From the NCBI GenBank assembly GCA_019828545.1, contig JACVRA010000149.1:146057-210056 (forward strand): a DNA stretch of 64,000 nt. The letters run 5' to 3'. The translations under genes and the position numbers were made by a program. This DNA is from Paracamarosporium sp. OC-R06-R3. Taxonomy: Eukaryota; Ascomycota; Dothideomycetes; Pleosporales; Didymosphaeriaceae. This document shows, piece by piece, positions 22,018 through 56,800 of the stretch. A model generated the notes under the pieces. The model saw nothing but the letters and a program-made list of their open reading frames with translations, ran no database searches and was not told the DNA's origin. Positions within the stretch are counted from its first letter, which is position 1, and every line of letters begins with the position of its first letter.

Positions 22018-25000
22018 ATGGCTCCCGCTGCCACCGCCGCACACACGGCCAAGAACGTCAAGGCCGAGAACTCAAAGTCCGTCAAGGTCCTTGAGGAGCT
22101 CCTCGGCAAGTTGACCGTCTCCAAGGCCCAGGACGAGATCAACGCCTCTGCCCTCGACCTCGCCACCTTCATCAACGGCGACATCGAGGAGGGCGATGCC
22201 CCCGTCAAGTACGTCGAAACCCTGCAATTCCTCCCACCAGCCTTCTAACAACAACTCCAGGGCCGTCGAGCTGCTCCGGAAGCAGTTGAGCAACCGCAAG
22301 GATGCCGTCGCCCGTGAGCGTGCGCTGGACGCCATCCGCGCCATCGCCCAGCACTCGACCGTCTCCGCCGCTGTCGAGCCCTACCTCGTCTCTCTCCTGC
22401 CCGATACCCTCAACGCCGTCGCCGACAAGATGAGCGCCGTCAAGGTCGCTGCTCAGACCGCCTCCGAGGCCATCGTCTCCGCCGCCAACCCCAACGCCGT
22501 CAAGGCCATCATCCCCCACATCATCCACTCGCTCGAGGCGACCCTCAAGTGGCCCGAGAAGATCACCGATCTTAAGTGCATCGAGATCCTCACCAAGAGC
22601 GCCCCTGCTCAGCTCGCCTTCCGTGTCCCCGACCTGATCCCCGTCATCTCCGGTGCTATGTGGGATACCAAGGCTGAGGTCAAGAAGGCTGCCTACGCTA
22701 CCATGGAGACCCTTTGCGGCCTCATCTCCAACAAGGATATCGAGCGCTTCATTCCCGAGCTCATCAAGTGTATCGCCAAGCCTGAGAACGTCCCCGAGAC
22801 CGTTCACTTGCTCGGTGCCACCACTTTCGTCACTGACGTCCACGAGCCCACCCTCGCCATCATGGTTCCCCTGCTTGAGCGTGGTCTCGTCGAGCGCGAG
22901 ACTGCCATCAAGCGTAAGTCGGCCGTCATTGTCGACAACATGTGCAAGCTTGTCGAGGACCCCCAGATCGTCGCTGCTTTCTTGCCCAAGCTGATGCCTG
23001 CGCTCGAGAAGAACTACGACAACCTTGCTGATCCCGAGGCCCGTGAGAAGACCAAGCAGGCTTTGGACACCTTGATCCGTGTCGGTCACGTCGAGAACGG
23101 CAAGGCTCCTGAGATCTCCAAGGATGGTGACATTGCTACCGTCGCTGGCCACCTCAAGGACGTTGTCCCCGGCAGCGTCAGCCTCGACAAGTTCGGACCC
23201 ATCATTGACTACATCGGTGCCATCGGTGGCCAGCTCATCGACGAGAAGGACTACGAGCCCTTCAACTGGCAGTCCAACGTCGGCCCCTTCCTTGCCATCA
23301 TCGTTGGTGACGAGCAGGCTAAGGACCTCGTCGACAACCTTCGCAAGCGTGCCATTCCCGGTGCTGCTGCCGAGGATGCCGTTGAGCCCGATGAGGAGGA
23401 GGGCGAGGATCTCTGCAACTGCACGTTCAACTTGGCCTACGGTGCCAAGATCCTGCTTAACCAGACTCATCTCCGCCTGAAGCGTGGCCAGCGTTACGGT
23501 CTTCTCGGCCCCAACGGTTCCGGAAAGACCACCCTCATGCGCGCCATCAACAACGAGCAGGTCGAAGGTTTCCCCAAGCAGAACGAGGTCAAGACCGTCT
23601 ACGTCGAGCACGACCTTGACTCTGCCGATACTGAGCAGACTGTTATTGAGTGGACCGTGAAGAAGCTGCAGTCCGTCGGAATCAACAAGCCGCAATCCGA
23701 GGTTGAGGCCACCCTTGTCGAGTTCGGTTTCGTCCAGGAGCAGCTCCAGAACCCCATCACCTCGCTTTCTGGTGGTTGGAAGATGAAGCTCGCTCTCGCT
23801 CGTGCCGTGTTTGAGGAGCCCGATATCCTGCTTCTTGACGAGCCGACTAACCACTTGGACGTGAAGAACGTCAAGTGGCTCGAGGACTACCTCACCAGCT
23901 CTCCCTGCACGTCCATCGTCATCTCTCACGACAGCAAGTTCTTGAACAACATCATTCAGCACGTCATCCACTACGAGCGCTTCAAGCTCAAGCGTTACCG
24001 TGGTAACCTCGATGCTTTCGTCAAGCGTGTGCCGTCTGCTCGTTCTTACCACGAGCTCGGTGCTTCCGAGATGGAGTTCAAGTTCCCCGAGCCCGGTTTC
24101 CTTGAGGGTGTCAAGACCAAGGCCAAGGCCATCGTCCGTGTCAACAACATGACCTTCCAGTACCCCGGTACCTCCAAGCCCCAGATCTCCGAGATCACCT
24201 TCCAGTGCTCGCTCGGTTCGCGTATTGCCGTCATTGGTCCCAACGGTGCCGGAAAGTCTACCCTCGTCAACGTTCTGACTGGTGAACTCATCCCCACATC
24301 TGGTGACGTCTACCAGCACGAGAACATCCGTATTGCGTACATCAAGCAGCACGCTTTCGCGCACATTGACCACCACTTGGACAAGACCCCCTCCGAGTAC
24401 ATTCAGTGGCGTTTCCAGACTGGTGAGGACCGTGAGACCATGGACCGTGCCAACAAGATCGTCACCGAGGAGGACGAGAAGGCTATGGACAAGATCTACC
24501 GTATTGAGGGTACCCAGCGTCGTGTCATCGGTATCCACTCCCGCAGGAAGTTCAAGAACTCGTACGAGTACGAGTGCTCGTTCGCCCTTGGTGACAACGT
24601 TGGCATGAAGAACGAGAAGTGGACTCCCATGATGACTGCCGACAACGCCTGGATTCCCCGTACCGAGATCCTTGCCTCGCACGCCAAGATGGTTGCTGAG
24701 GTCGATCAGAAGGAGGCTCTCGCCAGCGGACAGTTCCGTCCTCTGGTCCGTAAGGAGATTGAGCAGCACTGCTCCAACTTCGGTCTTGACGCTGAGTTGG
24801 TTTCCCACTCTCGTATGCGTGGTCTCTCTGGTGGCCAGCGTGTCAAGGTTGTCCTTGCCGCTTGCTCATGGCAGCGTCCTCACTTGATCGTCCTTGACGA
24901 GCCTACCAACTACCTTGACCGTGACTCGCTCGGTGCCCTTTCCAAGGCCATCAAGTCCTTCGAGGGTGGTGTCATCATCATTACTCACTCTGCTGAGTTC

Positions 25001-25316
25001 ACCAAGGACCTTACTGAGGAAGTCTGGGCCGTCATGGACGGTAAGATGACGCCTTCCGGCCACAACTGGGTACAGGGACAGGGTTCCGGTCCCCGGTTGC
25101 AGGAGAAGGGTGAAGAAGAGGAGAAGTTCGATGCCATGGGCAACAAGGTACGTCATCACCATCGGTGCTCTGAAATACAATTGCTAACGACGAGTTCAGA
25201 TTACCGGAACTGAGAAGAAGAAGAAGCTCACATCGAGCGAGATGAGGAAGAAGAAGAAGGACCGTATGGCCCGCCGCAAGCGTGGTGAGGAGGTCTTCTC
25301 CGACGAGGACGACTAG
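22018..25316 (+). CDS. TEF3: translation elongation factor 3 (ABC-F ATPase)
   Basis: Three exons: 22018-22208, 22261-25147 and 25200-25316, with introns of 52 and 53 nt. The frame is exact, giving 1064 aa, close to the 1040-1060 aa usual for fungal EF-3. The N-terminal HEAT-repeat region is followed by two ABC modules: Walker [10 protein letters not shown] near residue 480, signature [12 protein letters not shown] and Walker [13 protein letters not shown]; then Walker [10 protein letters not shown] near 723, a chromodomain-like insertion, [12 protein letters not shown] and [12 protein letters not shown]. The tail is Lys/Arg-rich, as expected for ribosome binding. The protein is cytosolic, fungus-specific and drives E-site tRNA release. 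Codon use is strongly biased to C-ending codons, unlike its neighbours, which indicates very high expression and explains the long antisense ORF on the other strand. Confidence 0.98.
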
Positions 25317-38055: not shown

Positions 38056-40711
38056 TCACGCATCAACGCCCTCTACCTTCCTCAGGAACTCCTTCACCCG
38101 ACCTACGTCCGCGCCCTCGAGCGGATCGCTATCCAATGCCTGGACCAAGAGATCCAGGACGCTGTCCACTTTGTCTTCGTTGACTTTGGTGCACAGAGAA
38201 ACGACTTTCCTATACATGACTTCCAGTTGGCCGTCCTTCTCTTTCAACATGCTGCTCCGCTCCGCCAATTTGGTATTAATCCTAGTATATACCTCCAGCT
38301 TGTTTCTCAGCGTCGCTATGCTGGGTAGATTCGCCAGCAAACTTGAATTTGTCTGCGTAAGGAATGCAGCATCTGCTGGTAAGGGTGTGTTCAAGTACGC
38401 GGGCCCGTCGGAGGCTTTGCGGATGAGTTGATCGCCAGCAACAAGGAGCTGGGACGGAAGGTCGGAGGCGGATATGGCGAGATTGGAGCCTTCGATGTCG
38501 GCGTAGCCGATCTGGCGCTTTTCTCGGAGGTTTGCATCTGTGCTTACGGCGAGACTCTTGCGTTGGAGATCGACCCATCGTTTTAGGTTCGAGATGCGTT
38601 TTGCGCGGTCTTGCCGCGCTCGCATACGTCCTCGCAAGCTTTCCAGGCGTTGTTGTTCGTTTTTTTGGAGGGAGGAAAGTTGGGCTATCGTTTCGTTGGT
38701 GCGGTCAATATTGTCTTGTTTGAGACGGGCTTCTTGAGTGAATTGCATGCTTGCACTTTGTAATATGCCGCTCATGACTGCATTCGATTAGCACAGCACC
38801 GACAATAAACTTCTAAATAACCTACGCGGCTGAATCTCCCGACTCGTTTCCTCCACCTTGCTCAACGGCGCCTTGCCCTTATTAGGACTGCTGATCGTCG
38901 TGGGGAGGTCGGCATCTGTGTCGCTTCCAACACCGAAGTCTATGGGTCGTGTGCCCTTGTGATTTGGTATTGTGGGGTCGGCTTGAACCTCCATCAGTTG
39001 AGATATTATGTTCCGGTTTCCAATTCTTGCCGCAAGGTTTAACGCTGTGTTGCCAGCCTTATCCCGAGCGTTCACCATGTCTTGCATGAACCGCATCAGA
39101 CCGATAGGCTTCGCGTAGTTGCCGTTTCCTTCATATGCAGAGTGGCTGGCGCCAATGTTGCTTCGTACCAGGTACTCCAGGAGGGCCTCAAGGTAATACT
39201 TGCTCGAGGCTGCTCGACCCTTAATAGCGCATGTAACGGCAATGTGGTGTAGGATGGTTCGCCCTTGGGCATCGCGCAGCTCGATGAGGGGGGCTAATAT
39301 TTCGAGCGTCTCTGGGAAACAGCTGTGGTCAAGACTGTTGTTTACCGAAACAGCACTCATCAGTGGAGTCTGGCCTGCCGCGTTTCCTCTGAACATGTTT
39401 GCGCCCTTGGATACAAGAAGACGCATCAGAGACACACGAGCCAGCGTTGCCGCCCAGTGCAAAGCGGTGTTGGAGCTGTTGTCGATTGGCATATCGAGGT
39501 CAGATCCAGAAAGGTGAAGTATTGCGGGGTGATTCGTAAAGTCTGTTCTTGACTGGTCTGCGAACAGGTCGGTCAACATGGCCTGCTTTTCCTCTGAGAT
39601 CTTGTCGCTGGGATGAGGCAACGGTGATAATGCAGTGGATACGTCGCCATCAGGCGTGGTAACAGGCAACCCTGCCTGATAAAAAGACTCATTTGGCTCT
39701 GTGGGAGAGCCGTGATCTTGCAAGACCACCTCTCCTCCGTTTGGTTGCGATTGCGAGAATGATTCCTCCTGAGACGGGCGCATCCTTTTCCGAGGTGGCT
39801 CCTGTATGTCGTCGACGCCGGTGCCGTATGCAGAATCGGTGTGGCCGTTGGGAGCTCCAAAACTACGTTCAGATGCTAGGCTTGGGACGCTCTGCTGGCT
39901 GCTGGCGCGGAACGAGTCCTGACTTCCGATGGGGTTTTGTGACGGTCGGCCCATGGACCTGCGCCCCTGGGAAGAGCTTGCAGGTCGAGGGGGTGCTGGT
40001 GAGTTCAGCCTTGCTACTTTGTTCATGGCGGCGAGCGCACTTGTCGCTGTTGACGATATGTTGGAGAAAAAGGTGCCGCCTACGCTCTGGCTTGTGCCGC
40101 GGCCGTCTATACTCTGGGTGTAGAAGCGCTTCCTGTTTGCTGCCATGGCCTGCTCCTTGGTTGGCGTTTCAATGCCCAGCCCTGCATTCCCATCGGCGCT
40201 GACGTCGTAGTCGAGCAGCGGCCTGAGAATGTCCTCGACGCCGTACTGCCGGCAGAACTCCCTCCCACGGCGGTAGTTGATCCACGTGCCCTGGTACTTG
40301 CCGTAGCCACCCTGGACCTTCTCGTGCTCGCCCGTCAATATCTCTTTTTCAAGCACCTTTGTGCGCTTGCCCTTGTCGACGCCTGCCACCTTGAGGATCT
40401 GGGTCGCGTTCAGCCAGCCGTCGGAGCGCCGGCGCATGACGGCGACGCGGTTGACCTCCATCTCATACACGGAAACGCCCGAGTAGACGGCCTGGGCACG
40501 TTAGCAGAGGCATGCAGAGGGCACGGGGCATGCGCACGGTATATATCTGGGGCTTGTCCATGGAGTGTTGCTGGTAGCCATTGACGTCGGAGAAGGAGCG
40601 GTTGAAGGAAGGGGCGGCCATGATGCCGTGGGGCGAGTTGGCGTACATGGCAGGCTGCGAGGACGAGCCCGAGGGGAAGGACTGGGAGACGGCGGGACGC
40701 GCGACTTGCAT
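38056..40711 (-). CDS. MBP1: MBF cell-cycle transcription factor (APSES + ankyrin)
   Basis: Three exons on the minus strand: 40538-40711, 38826-40491 and 38056-38777, with introns of 46 and 48 nt. The frame is exact, giving 853 aa. The APSES/KilA-N DNA-binding domain is split by the first intron (MDKPQIYT|AVYSGVSVYEMEVN) and continues with RRRSDGWLNATQILKVAGVD and the KYQGTWINYRRG motif. A Ser/Pro-rich linker, ankyrin repeats (DNSSNTALHWAATLARV, GNTALNLAARIGN) and a C-terminal coiled coil (QFTQEARLKQDNIDRTNE) follow, the order seen in Mbp1/Res2. The coiled-coil exon is easily mistaken for a separate gene. The protein binds ACGCGT boxes with a Swi6-type partner and drives G1/S genes. The upstream Met at 40711 keeps a conserved-looking Ser/Gln leader. 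Confidence 0.94.
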
Positions 40712-52182: not shown

Positions 52183-52968
52183 GTGTCGAGAAGTGAGATG
52201 CCAGACAGACATTATGGAGTATATGGGATCTAATAATGGGAGTCATCTTATCTATCGCTGTTTATGTCTAAGACGACACTTCTACATGAGTAGAGTAATT
52301 AGCGGAGGATGACCCACGACCAGGTGTATATGCTCTATATCGCTTCATGTTCACAGCCAATTTTCCATGTAGAGAGTCTATATTAGCAGTTTTTCCCTAG
52401 ATGGAACATTTCCAATCCTTTCCCACACTTGAATTAGTCGCGCTCGCCCTCCTTGGTCACTTCATTCTAGGGCCCGTCATAAGTGACAAAGAACGCAAGG
52501 AGCAGCACGAAGCCAGGAATTGATAGCACTGCTGCAACCTTATAAAGTTTTGCTATTATGCAGGAGATTAATATCTAGTAGAACGCAACTAAGCGATATT
52601 TCTCGATGACTTTCAAGGGAGTCGGTCCGCGAACAGCTTAAACACGTCCGATAAAATGAAGCAAGAGTTCATGAATTCAGACCACGGAGCAAGCCACGGA
52701 AAACAAAACAGTTATTACTAGCTGTTATGATAACCTTTGTTTGATGGCAGTGGCTGCTATGCGCGAGTACTTGTCTGACGAGCCAAAGTAGTCGAAATAC
52801 ATCTTAAGTAGAGTCATTGAACGTGTATCCCTTAATTCTTTTTGTGTTCATGAAAGCGCTGGTGCAAAGGTTGAGTTGTGTCGTGTAAGGGATTCCGAAT
52901 AAGGGCAAAAAGAAGCTGGCAGTAGGTCTAACAGTAAGACTCGAACCACTACAGGTTCACTCAAAGAC
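52183..52968. other. gene-poor spacer
   Basis: About 790 bp without a gene. The stretch GGTTCGAGTCT (minus strand, near 52940) resembles a Pol III B box just downstream of the tRNA terminator, but it has no matching stems. Confidence 0.4.
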
Positions 52969-52974
52969 AAAAAA
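52969..52974 (-). terminator. T6 Pol III terminator of tRNA-iMet
   Basis: Six T residues on the minus strand, 9 nt after the last base of the mature tRNA; a canonical Pol III stop. Confidence 0.8.
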
Positions 52975-52983
52975 GATGTGCTA

Positions 52984-53159
52984 TAGCTGAGCTACGTTTC
53001 GATCGTAGGCTGAGTGCTGTTAGCTGAGATCTGAGGTGATATCCATGGTGTGAACGTACTCCTCCGGGTTATGAGCCTTTGAACCATATTAGTACAAGGT
53101 GTGGAAGTGTTGGAGTAGAGAAGAACGTACCCGGCGCGCTTCCGCTGCGCCACTCAGCT
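52984..53159 (-). tRNA. initiator tRNA-Met(CAU) with two spliceosomal-type introns
   Basis: On the minus strand, three exons (53131-53159, 53060-53076, 52984-53009; 29+17+26 = 72 nt) form a complete initiator tRNA. Stems pair perfectly: acceptor AGCTGAG with CTCAGCT, D stem GCGC with GCGC, anticodon stem CCGGG with CCCGG, T stem CTACG with CGTAG. Anticodon CAT is at 53073-53071. The A1-T72 pair and T loop ATCGAAA are marks of eukaryotic initiators. Intron 1 (53077-53130, 54 nt) interrupts the anticodon stem; intron 2 (53010-53059, 50 nt) lies before the last variable-loop base. Both begin GTACGTTC and end in AG; branch-like TACTAAT is at 53088-53094 and GCTAAC at 53019-53024. No T4 run lies inside the gene, and a T6 run follows. 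A TATA-like stretch is about 50 nt upstream. Neither intron is at position 37/38, so the Sen tRNA-splicing pathway is unlikely. Confidence 0.85.
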
Positions 53160-53814
53160 TTTCAAAGCTTGATGTGAATTGATGGGACTTTTTCATGCAA
53201 AAAATATTATATACAGCAACAATAATCAAAAATAATCAATATTTACAACGCTGTTTTTACGCGGAACACTTGTCGGGCAATATTCAGTCCAGTGTGGGGT
53301 CTTTTTGCCCCTCGGTAAGCGTAGCGGCACCAATGGCACAACCTGACTCTAGAGCGGTAAAATAATTCGATAGCCTGACAGGATGCATGACAAAGTCGTC
53401 AACATAAGACTTATCCTTGTATCTAGCTCCCTTAATTAACGAGAATTGTTCAGTGACGATATGAATGGATACTATGGAAATGGCTATTTTCCCGAAGTGA
53501 CATGAAAGGGAATTATCAGATTCACAGACTTCCTTGAACGCCACTTGCCAGTACCTGAAACTAATATCATGTGTCGAATATCAATGATGAATTTTTGTTG
53601 CGACTTTACTGTTGGCCATACTTCTAGGATGCGTGTTGGCAAGTGCGTACGGCGCGCCTGCTCTGTGAGGAGTCAGGCTAGGCCAGTGCGGCTAGCGTAT
53701 CGCGTCGCGTGCCGAAGTGGTGCACGCGTCGCGACTGGATACTCGTCTCAAGTCTCCTGCACTGTCTTCATTCACATACACAATACACAATGTCGTCACA
53801 ATCCTAGAGAATCA
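53160..53814. promoter_or_regulatory. spacer tRNA-iMet / CTF18, with MCB box
   Basis: It contains the TATA-like upstream region of the tRNA (near 53206-53216) and, 86 bp before the CTF18 start, an ACGCGT box (53724-53729) inside a stretch rich in GCGTCGCG. An 86-aa minus ORF at 53284-53544 has no support. Confidence 0.45.
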
Positions 53815-56800
53815 ATGAGCACATACTCCGACGGTATTCCAACCTCCTTTGACCCCGCTCTTCTCAACTCCGAACTCGATTTTCTTGACGCGCCGCCTTC
53901 TAATTCCTTCTCCGACGACATCAACGCGATCCAGCAGTGCATTGCCGACGATAAAATCCAGAAAACCAAGGCAGGAATAGTCATCCAACATCGCATTTGG
54001 AGCATAACAGACGCATTTAGGAGCGAGGAGGATTACCCAATTGGTACTGTGGACGGTTGAACTGCGCGGTAACCGAACTAAGATTCCTAGACACGCCGCT
54101 GAAGCACTTGAAGAACGCGCCAATCCAAAGCTTCCCCACTGATACTTGGACTGAAAGCCGTATACCCTCCTCGCCACCCACCATGCCGCATATCTCTTCA
54201 CCCCCCGCGTATCCTCCCAGCTCGGAACCAAACCACACCTCCCCAAAGAAGAGAAAGCGATCGGATGCAGAGCGCAGCCCACTCAAGGATGTGTCGCACA
54301 ACAATGTTTCAAGAAGAGTGGGTGCATTCCTGGACGACTCAGACGACGAGGACGAAATCGCTGCGCTCAAAGAGCAGGCTCTAAAAAGGAGAGCTATCAA
54401 CAGCATCAGGGATCTCCCAGCCCTACCAGATGGCATGGACGATTACACACCGCCAGCCAGCCAATCAGACATCGCAGATCCAGAGACAGTACCACTCGAG
54501 GCGCTGGATGAGTACTTTAGGTCACCTTCGCCGGCCAAGCAGCCCGTTGCGGCACCGGACCAGCCTACCTCAGCGCAGCCAAATCGTGGCAAGGTTGCGC
54601 GGACAGCTTCCGGCAAGCCATTCTACATTCCCAAGAAGCTTCAACGAGAGCCTGTTTCGTATGAGCAGCTCATAGCATCTCGGTCCACTGGCGAGCAGGG
54701 ACAGGCCAGACAAAGCTACTATGGTGTTAACATCCACCGACTCATCGATGATGCGAAGGCCATGGATGAGGCAAAGCTCGCTCGACAAGAAGAGGCACGC
54801 ACTGAAACCACACGGCAATCCGTTGAACAGCCTGTCTCTGGAAAAGGGAGCCGTACTTTGATGTGGACTGAAAAGTATCGCGCAAAGAAATTTACAGATT
54901 TGGTCGGCGACGAACGCACGCATCGCTCAGTTCTTCGTTGGCTCAAGGCATGGGACCCAATAGTTTTCCCAGGTTCAGCTAAGCAAAAGCCGAAGAGCGC
55001 AAGGCAGGGATTCGATGAGGAGGAACAGAGACATCGCAAGATTCTTTTGCTCACCGGACCGCCTGGTCTCGGGAAGACGACGCTTGCCCACGTATGCGCT
55101 CGACAAGCTGGTTACGAAGTTCAGGAGATCAACGCATCTGACGAGCGCAGCAAGGATGTTGTCAAAGGCCGCATTCGCGATATGGTTGGCACCGAAAACG
55201 TTCGCGGAGTAAACACAACTACAGCGAATGGCAAAGTTCGGAAAGCGGGCAAACCCGTGTGTGTAGTCGTAGACGAAGTTGACGGCGTGGTATCTGGCAG
55301 TGGTGGCGCTGGGGAAGGAGGTTTCGTCAAGGCGCTAATCGACCTCATCAATCTGGACGAGAAGAACTCGAAGAACATTGGACAGCAAAGCTCAACAGGA
55401 CCAAAGCGAAAGAAGAAGGGAGACAGGTTTCGACTCCTTCGTCCATTGATCCTCATATGTAACGACGTGTACCATCCTTCACTTCGACCGCTGCGACAAT
55501 CATCGCTAGCTGAGATCATTCACATCCGCAAGCCTGCGCTCAACATGGTTGTTACGCGTATGCAAGAGGTATTTACTAAAGAGGGCATTCAGTGCGATTT
55601 AGACGGTGTGCGACGTTTATGTGAGGCGACCTGGGGTGTGAGCACGAAAAAGGAGGGCGGCACGGGAAATGGAACTGGTGAAGGGGATATTCGCGGCGTT
55701 ATGGTAGTGGGAGAGTGGGTTGCCGGTCGCTTCAGGGGTTCAATGGACCCGAAGATGAAAGATTCACCAAGACTCAGCCGTCGCTGGATCGAGGACAACA
55801 TCATCAACGATCTCGGACATGGAGGCGGAGCAGCTCGCAGCTTAGGCCGAGGAGGCGCAAAGGATGTAGTCGATCGAGTCTTTCGCGAAGGCGCCGGGTT
55901 TCCCAAGCAGGCCGAAACTACCGACGTCAACACAGCAACGGCGAGAGCGAAGCAGGGAGTTATTGGCGTTGCCGAAGCAGCAAAGAAGCGGGCGATGGCT
56001 CGGCTACGGGAGATGGTAGATACGAGCGGCGATTGCGATCGCATCGTGACTGGTATGTGCTTCCTGTCTCTTTGATTACCAGCTACTTACGATGCCTAGA
56101 TTGCTTCACTGCTTACCCTGCGAAATCCTTCCAGGACGACAACTACCTCAGCAAACCTACCGCTGCATATGAGTGGCTGCACTTCCACGACACACTCTCT
56201 TCCGCTGTTCACGGTTCTCAGGAATGGGAACTTGCGCCCTACCTTTCGCAATCTATTCTTGCCTTCCACAATTTCTTCGCTTCACCCCGCCAACAGTCTT
56301 CTAACCCGATTGCCGATCCTGATGCAGAGACGAGCGCGTTCTCTGGTCCCAGTGCTAACTATATGGCGAGTGAGGAGCTAAAGAAGAACCGAGCACAGTT
56401 GATGGCATTGCAGAGCACGTTGAGTCTACCACTTACTAGACTATTCAGGAGTCCGGAGGAAATGGCAGTCGAGCTAATACCGTACGTGCTGAGGATGCTA
56501 TCGCCAGATGTCAAGCCTGTTATCGTGAACACCGGCGCTGCGGGTTCGAAATCGTCCGCTACTGCCTCTGTTCGGAAAGCGTCAGAAAAGGTCCTTGTCA
56601 AGAAAGCCGTTGAAGCAATGGCCGCTACAGGCGTTCGATTCGAAAGGAGTAGAGTGGAAATAGAAGACATAGCAAATCGGACTGGCGGTTGGGTCTTCCG
56701 CATGGAGCCTCCGCTAGACTCACTTGCTGCTTTCGAAACATTGGCCGATAAGAAGGATGAAAAAGTACGCTATGCGGTTCGCAGTGTATTGGAGACAGAG

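Follow-up and report, generated by a model that had tools for sequence, protein, structure and literature searches.

Introns of eukaryotic tRNA genes lie mostly between positions 37 and 38 and are cut out by the tRNA endonuclease, the exceptions named in the available portion of one survey being nucleomorphs and a red alga (PMC4090602), and the accessible text of the tRNAscan-SE 2.0 paper puts the maximum at one intron per eukaryotic tRNA gene (PMC8450103). Non-canonical tRNA introns have been described in Cyanidioschyzon merolae, nucleomorphs and Crenarchaeota; according to the excerpts available (PMC4090602, PMC9602550), they interrupt the D, anticodon and T arms, may occur several to a gene, and either have bulge-helix-bulge (BHB) type sites or are very short (3–24 nt, in one nucleomorph). 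An mRNA-type spliceosomal intron is present in the U6 snRNA of fission yeast, a Pol III-made RNA, as PMC10484740 states, and the original prediction cited fungal U6 genes with such introns as a precedent. A literature search of titles and abstract openings, which took in few subscription papers and no bioRxiv preprints, listed none in which nuclear tRNA genes are described as having spliceosomal introns.

The genes described here depart from the one-intron, 37/38 picture of eukaryotic tRNA genes. Their introns resemble those of C. merolae, nucleomorphs and Crenarchaeota in the arms that are interrupted and in being several to a gene, and differ, as far as the excerpted descriptions go, in carrying spliceosomal signals and lacking the bulge-helix-bulge. 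Like canonical 37/38 introns, which are abundant in this genome, they interrupt tRNA genes, and they sometimes share a gene with the canonical type, from which they are distinguished by position, GT-AG ends, a branch motif and the absence of a bulge-helix-bulge. The likeness to fission yeast U6 is that of a Pol III-type non-coding RNA gene with an mRNA-type intron, recognised here from sequence; the differences are that the RNA is a tRNA, that seven isoacceptor families are involved, that each initiator gene has two introns, that six genes join spliceosomal and 37/38 introns, and that the full U6 genes of this fungus are themselves intron-free.

The window, by which we mean the whole 64-kb stretch of DNA analysed, contains what we consider, with a probability of roughly 0.92, to be a functional nuclear initiator tRNA-Met (iMet) gene, whose Pol III precursor would have two U2-type introns removed by the spliceosome. 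Its features, all on the minus strand, are as follows.

53206 to 53213, minus: TATATAAT, TATA-like element located some 50 nt upstream of the gene
53169 to 53184, minus: CATCAATTCACATCAA, possible transcription start region, presumed so after the CAA-type start of yeast tRNA genes
53159 to 52984, minus: whole iMet gene, coordinates and sequence as in the original prediction
53131 to 53159, minus: exon 1 of initiator tRNA-Met(CAT), positions 1–30, with the A box inside; the same in paralogues L003 and L005
53077 to 53130, minus: intron 1, 54 nt, GTACGT...TACTAAT...AAG, at tRNA positions 30/31; same site in both paralogues, sequence diverged
53060 to 53076, minus: exon 2, positions 31–47, anticodon CAT
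53010 to 53059, minus: intron 2, 50 nt, GTACGT...GCTAAC...CAG, at positions 47/48 (46/47 in the two paralogues)
52984 to 53009, minus: exon 3, positions 48–73, containing the T arm in full together with the internal B-box region
52969 to 52974, minus: T6 run, resembling a Pol III terminator
52938 to 52946, minus: GTTCGAGTC, external B box downstream of the terminator

Removal of both introns leaves a tRNA of 72 nt with the T loop ATCGAAA, in which all 21 stem pairs are Watson-Crick (acceptor 7/7, D 4/4, anticodon 5/5, T 5/5), just as had been proposed. Eukaryotic initiator tRNAs are marked by the anticodon CAT, A1:U72, GGG:CCC at 29–31:39–41, A54 and A60, and the spliced form has every one of these (the second as A1:T72). 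A comparison of the two forms with a tRNA finder had also been suggested: with introns allowed, ARAGORN reports tRNA-Met(cat) for the spliced form and a false tRNA-Leu for the raw locus. Stock ARAGORN reports no tRNA at all in the 64-kb window, and no Rfam model exceeds its cut-off there, the iMet locus included. It had further been argued that neither the anticodon stem nor the T arm could form in the unspliced RNA. The first part holds and the second does not, since exon 3 contains the entire T arm, which is predicted to form even in the three unspliced iMet precursors. What the introns interrupt is therefore no more than the anticodon stem, in the case of intron 1, and the variable loop, in the case of intron 2.

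The proposed pathway would begin with a Pol III unit consisting of the upstream TATA element, the A box of exon 1, the B-box region of exon 3, the external B box and the T6 end. The spliceosome would then recognise GTACGT together with TACTAAT or GCTAAC and excise both introns in the manner of an mRNA, and the joined RNA would fold as an initiator, with ordinary tRNA end processing and modification finishing its maturation. The sequence shows the anatomy of the gene, a spliced product that is conserved while the introns diverge, the splice signals, the lack of endonuclease motifs and the promoter elements; from these we infer that splicing occurs in cells, that the spliceosome is its agent and Pol III the polymerase, and that the steps follow in this order. 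The spliceosomal route would be common to at least nine other tRNA genes of the fungus.

Three lines of searching in the genome (43.1 Mb in 337 contigs) bear on whether this gene stands alone. First, an initiator D-arm query with up to two mismatches hits 24 places, three of them exactly, and all three exact hits are iMet genes with both introns, namely the window copy and paralogues on contigs C11 and C55 (L003 and L005). The exons are identical at 72/72 positions across the three loci, the intron interiors are 56–71% identical between copies (shuffled sequences give means of 50–53%), and the 800-nt flanks share short local matches of chance size only. In the window copy intron 2 is displaced by one base in the 3′ direction relative to the two paralogues, and as the spliced product remains the same, both boundaries of the intron have moved together. 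Second, among the matches listed in a genome search with the spliced 72-mer, only the three intron-bearing loci appear, piecewise, with exons 1 and 2 listed and exon 3 absent from the listing, and no uninterrupted copy in the genome matched the 72-mer. Third, when up to two mismatches are allowed, an anticodon-arm pattern occurs at 13 places, the three iMet genes and ten others; nine of these ten were excised, and none parsed as a tRNA. The search for uninterrupted copies covered two families, iMet and Ser-GCT. Several intact, intron-free iMet genes elsewhere, together with a lack of reads across the junctions, had been named as grounds for calling the locus a pseudogene; none matches the 72-mer, although one initiator-like gene without spliceosomal introns exists on contig C282.

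Other tRNA genes with introns of this type were sought by combining B-box-plus-T5 patterns, fetched stretches and an Rfam tRNA search, in which 63 of 1284 candidates were scored, and by parsing the results with a cloverleaf model allowing both a 37/38 intron and GT-AG introns. Because the parser admitted only introns with suitable ends and a branch-like motif, the signal statistics outside the initiator genes reflect selection in part. The survey is pattern-based and incomplete, in that tRNA genes lacking a T5 run are missed and a few pattern places were left out; the totals for the later B-box-plus-T5 patterns were about those of their controls, and 20 places resembling tRNA ends were taken from them. 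A first pass gave 79 distinct gene sequences scoring above 20, six with spliceosomal-type introns, and a relaxed pass gave 79 without such an intron and 12 with. The final list consists of the relaxed-pass 12 minus L116 plus Pro-CGG (L119, from the 79), and amounts to 12 genes with 15 introns in seven isoacceptor families:

iMet, three genes: two introns each, at 30/31 and at 46/47 or 47/48
Ser-GCT, two genes: intron in the D loop
Leu-CAA, one gene: intron in the D loop, plus a 37/38 intron
Val-CAC, one gene: intron in the D loop
Ala-CGC, two genes: intron at 25/26, both plus a 37/38 intron
Glu-TTC, two genes: intron in the D arm of one and the T stem of the other, both plus a 37/38 intron
Pro-CGG, one gene: intron at 34/35, within the anticodon, plus a 37/38 intron

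A 37/38 intron is thus also present in six of the nine non-initiator genes, which would therefore need two splicing machineries. ARAGORN names all twelve genes correctly when they are spliced and none in the raw form (8 misnamed, 4 missed). The two Ser-GCT genes repeat the pattern of the initiators, with exons identical at 81/81 positions and diverged introns; no uninterrupted Ser-GCT copy matched, the only other matches being three Ser-AGA genes at 83% identity. When 36 random motif sets served as decoys, they produced 1.2 calls on average and never more than 5, as against 12 for the real motif, these 12 being eleven of the final twelve genes (Pro-CGG is absent) together with L116. Some decoy matches fall at true loci (e.g. 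L151, L152 and L153), because excising nearly the same piece also rebuilds much of the cloverleaf. Pro-CGG is the least certain of the twelve, as its unspliced parse as Thr-CGT scores 20.6 and the spliced one 20.1; its body and discriminator are like those of the other Pro genes, which is why it is assigned to Pro. L116 (C61:163100-163650), a tRNA-like sequence whose very long insertion cannot clearly be assigned to either intron type, was dropped as a spliced tRNA since decoy motifs "find" it too. Canonical introns are widespread in the same set: most parsed nuclear tRNA genes carry one at 37/38 (65 have one of at least 6 nt), and another Val-CAC gene has a 37/38 intron only.

The most serious competing account is that the three iMet genes are real but minor, that the gene on C282 supplies most of the initiator, and that translation start does not depend on the spliceosome. 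This gene (C282:515110-515196; L008:1494-1580) is identical to iMet at 59 of 72 positions once its 37/38 intron is removed, and has no spliceosomal intron. It retains A1:T72 and A54 as well as a D arm like that of initiators, every stem pairs, and a TATA-like stretch lies upstream. It may be a variant, possibly a second, initiator. Against a leading role are its departures from two initiator hallmarks (A29:T41 for G29:C41, and G60 for A60), the TTTT within its 15-nt intron, and its end only 292 nt from the contig end. The three dispersed iMet copies with identical exons argue that they are the standard genes, and the C282 gene would in any case leave other families untouched, such as Ser-GCT with its lack of a matching uninterrupted copy. 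We consider this account unlikely. Because the C282 gene exists as a possible other source, however, we make no claim that the initiator depends strictly on the spliceosome. The window locus is real and, judged by its conservation, functional, and it most likely belongs to a group of tRNA genes whose maturation requires the spliceosome. It is also probable, at a distinctly lower level of confidence than the reading of the iMet gene itself, that the spliceosome is an obligate tRNA-maturation enzyme in this fungus, with the standard initiator, Ser-GCU and Glu-UUC coming, within the scope of the survey, solely from genes with spliceosomal introns, and Leu-CAA, Ala-CGC, Pro-CGG and Glu-UUC maturing through both the endonuclease and the spliceosome.

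The signals around the iMet genes are those of Pol III transcription. The elements of a type 2 gene (A box, B box and T-run terminator) are all present, in agreement with the predicted anatomy of an A box in exon 1, a B-box region in exon 3 and a T6 end. The lack of an internal T4 run, which had been offered as a further sign of Pol III, was dropped as uninformative, the five protein-gene introns of the window also being without T4. Of 73 other parsed tRNA loci, 56 have a TATA-like element 25–62 nt upstream, as do 8 of 10 spliceosomal-intron genes examined, all three iMet genes among them. An external B box (GTTCGANNC) follows 23–44 nt past the 3′ end in 3/3 iMet genes and in 0/59 other parsed tRNA loci that were covered for 60 nt or more downstream, a split with a chance probability of 2.6e-5 if loci are taken as independent (Pro-CGG is grouped with the other loci in the promoter, B-box and BHB controls). 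None was seen in the other spliceosomal-intron genes, of which Ser-GCT and Val-CAC were covered for 16–23 nt downstream. The promoter of the S. cerevisiae U6 gene SNR6 consists of a TATA element and a downstream B box, and here too a B box lies past the terminator, in the iMet genes as well as in the two full U6 genes (L141 and L142, on C53 and C302), the latter having no intron; the difference from SNR6 is that the external B box would serve a tRNA gene that still holds its internal B-box region. These features suggest that iMet is transcribed by Pol III with an added external TFIIIC site. C302 also has an additional, shorter U6 match in the opposite orientation. The 29 listed 5S matches (28 above cut-off; 111–120 nt) span the whole model, so these show no such intron.

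Transcription by Pol II, yielding a capped precursor that is spliced like an mRNA and then trimmed to a tRNA, would bring the coupled splicing machinery to the precursor, and TATA elements are found in the Pol II and Pol III classes alike. Nevertheless, the spacing of the upstream TATA is that of ordinary tRNA genes, the iMet genes retain A and B boxes in their exons and end in T runs, and the external B box sets the iMet genes apart from other tRNA loci and joins them with both full U6 genes. Moreover, Pol III-made RNA can be spliced, as stated for fission yeast U6 in the available part of PMC10484740. A Pol II origin thus seems quite improbable, and Pol III transcription followed by spliceosomal removal of the introns remains the preferred reading.

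That the introns are of the spliceosomal type is indicated by several properties. All fifteen are 48–57 nt long with GT-AG ends, and CTAAY is present in 14 with the branch A 10–14 nt from the end, the other having TTGAC; the six initiator introns all follow GTACGT...CTAAY...AG. The ends are partly independent of the parser because the cloverleaf and the identical iMet, Ser and Ala exons constrain the boundaries. The introns lie outside 37/38, at 30/31 and 46/47 or 47/48 in iMet and in the D arm, at 25/26, at 34/35 or in the T stem elsewhere. For the window copy, the original prediction had described GTACGT starts, TACTAAT and GCTAAC motifs, AG ends, positions away from 37/38 (here 30/31 and 47/48) and a match in size to the protein-gene introns of the window, and all of this is borne out, the 54 and 50 nt lying close to the 46–52 nt of the introns placed in the following genes:

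PGAP1, window: introns of 46 and 50 nt
CTF18, window: introns of 47 and 47 nt, one at 54044 to 54090
EF3, window 22209 to 22260: intron of 52 nt, GTACGT...CTAAC

CTRAY is found at −11 to −13 in three of these five introns, and the other two do not fit it. Ab initio intron finding in the window yielded few dependable introns, and four of the five were placed by means of homologous proteins, the CTF18 intron at 54044–54090 with a moderate fit to the homologue (27/39 residues). The PGAP1 homologue shares 80% identity with its Karstenula rhodostoma counterpart, and CTF18 shares 88% with the one from Kalmusia sp.; the best named protein matches are in the Pleosporales, in the Karstenula/Paraphaeosphaeria/Kalmusia group. 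Genome-wide, AGTG|GTANGT...CTAAY...AG occurs at 24 places and the reversed pattern at 5; the Leu-CAA and Ser-GCT introns account for three of the 24, and the remaining 5′ splice sites include GTACGT.

Removal by the tRNA endonuclease, as non-canonical introns of the BHB type, has precedents in archaeal tRNA introns at 30/31 and 45/46 and in a red-algal tRNA gene with three introns, according to the portions available of PMC4090602 and PMC9602550. Here, however, a BHB central helix of at least 3 pairs can be drawn at only 1 of 13 junction pairs (those of all introns but the two of Glu-TTC). Such a helix is found in 26 of the 65 canonical introns and at 16% of random positions, and GT..AG ends are seen in none of the 65 canonical 37/38 introns. 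Endonuclease removal is unlikely because the bulge-helix-bulge is rare at the junctions and no canonical intron is GT..AG. With mRNA-type ends in every intron and CTAAY in all but one, we judge this alternative to be highly improbable, and the tested junctions do not appear to belong to the archaeal and red-algal class. Likewise, no Rfam family with a group I or II ribozyme core exceeds its cut-off in the window, the introns being just 48–57 nt, and the exon 1–intron junction had no match when viral and prokaryotic contigs were scanned. That these are dead tRNA copies carrying inserted introns or random sequence, as short D- or T-arm insertions in eukaryotic tRNA genes are usually read (PMC4090602, accessible portion), is scarcely credible given identical exons in three dispersed iMet copies despite diverged introns and flanks, identical exons also in two Ser-GCT genes, and the compensated sliding of iMet intron 2. 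The reading of spliceosomal introns in a working iMet gene, as first put forward, is thus supported by the paralogues, the splice signals, the lack of a bulge-helix-bulge and the Pol III-type elements.

If the spliceosome is indeed obligate for tRNA maturation, translation start and the reading of certain codons would depend directly on splicing capacity, which could then act as a regulatory link to translation. The tRNA finders used here overlook or misname genes of this kind, which could account for initiator and other tRNAs that seem to be "missing" from fungal annotations. Such genes also open to test the action of the spliceosome on Pol III transcripts beyond U6, the entry of introns into tRNA genes, and the extent to which splicing defects feed straight into translation start.

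Some further genes were noted. A tRNA-Ile(AAT) and a tRNA-Glu(CTC) lie a few bases apart at L113 (C57:208700-209250) and may be co-transcribed. Within the window, the GTACGT intron at 22209–22260 belongs to an elongation factor 3-like gene at 22115–25213, and 38788–40500 encodes a protein with KilA-N and ankyrin domains, which we take to resemble fungal cell-cycle transcription factors.
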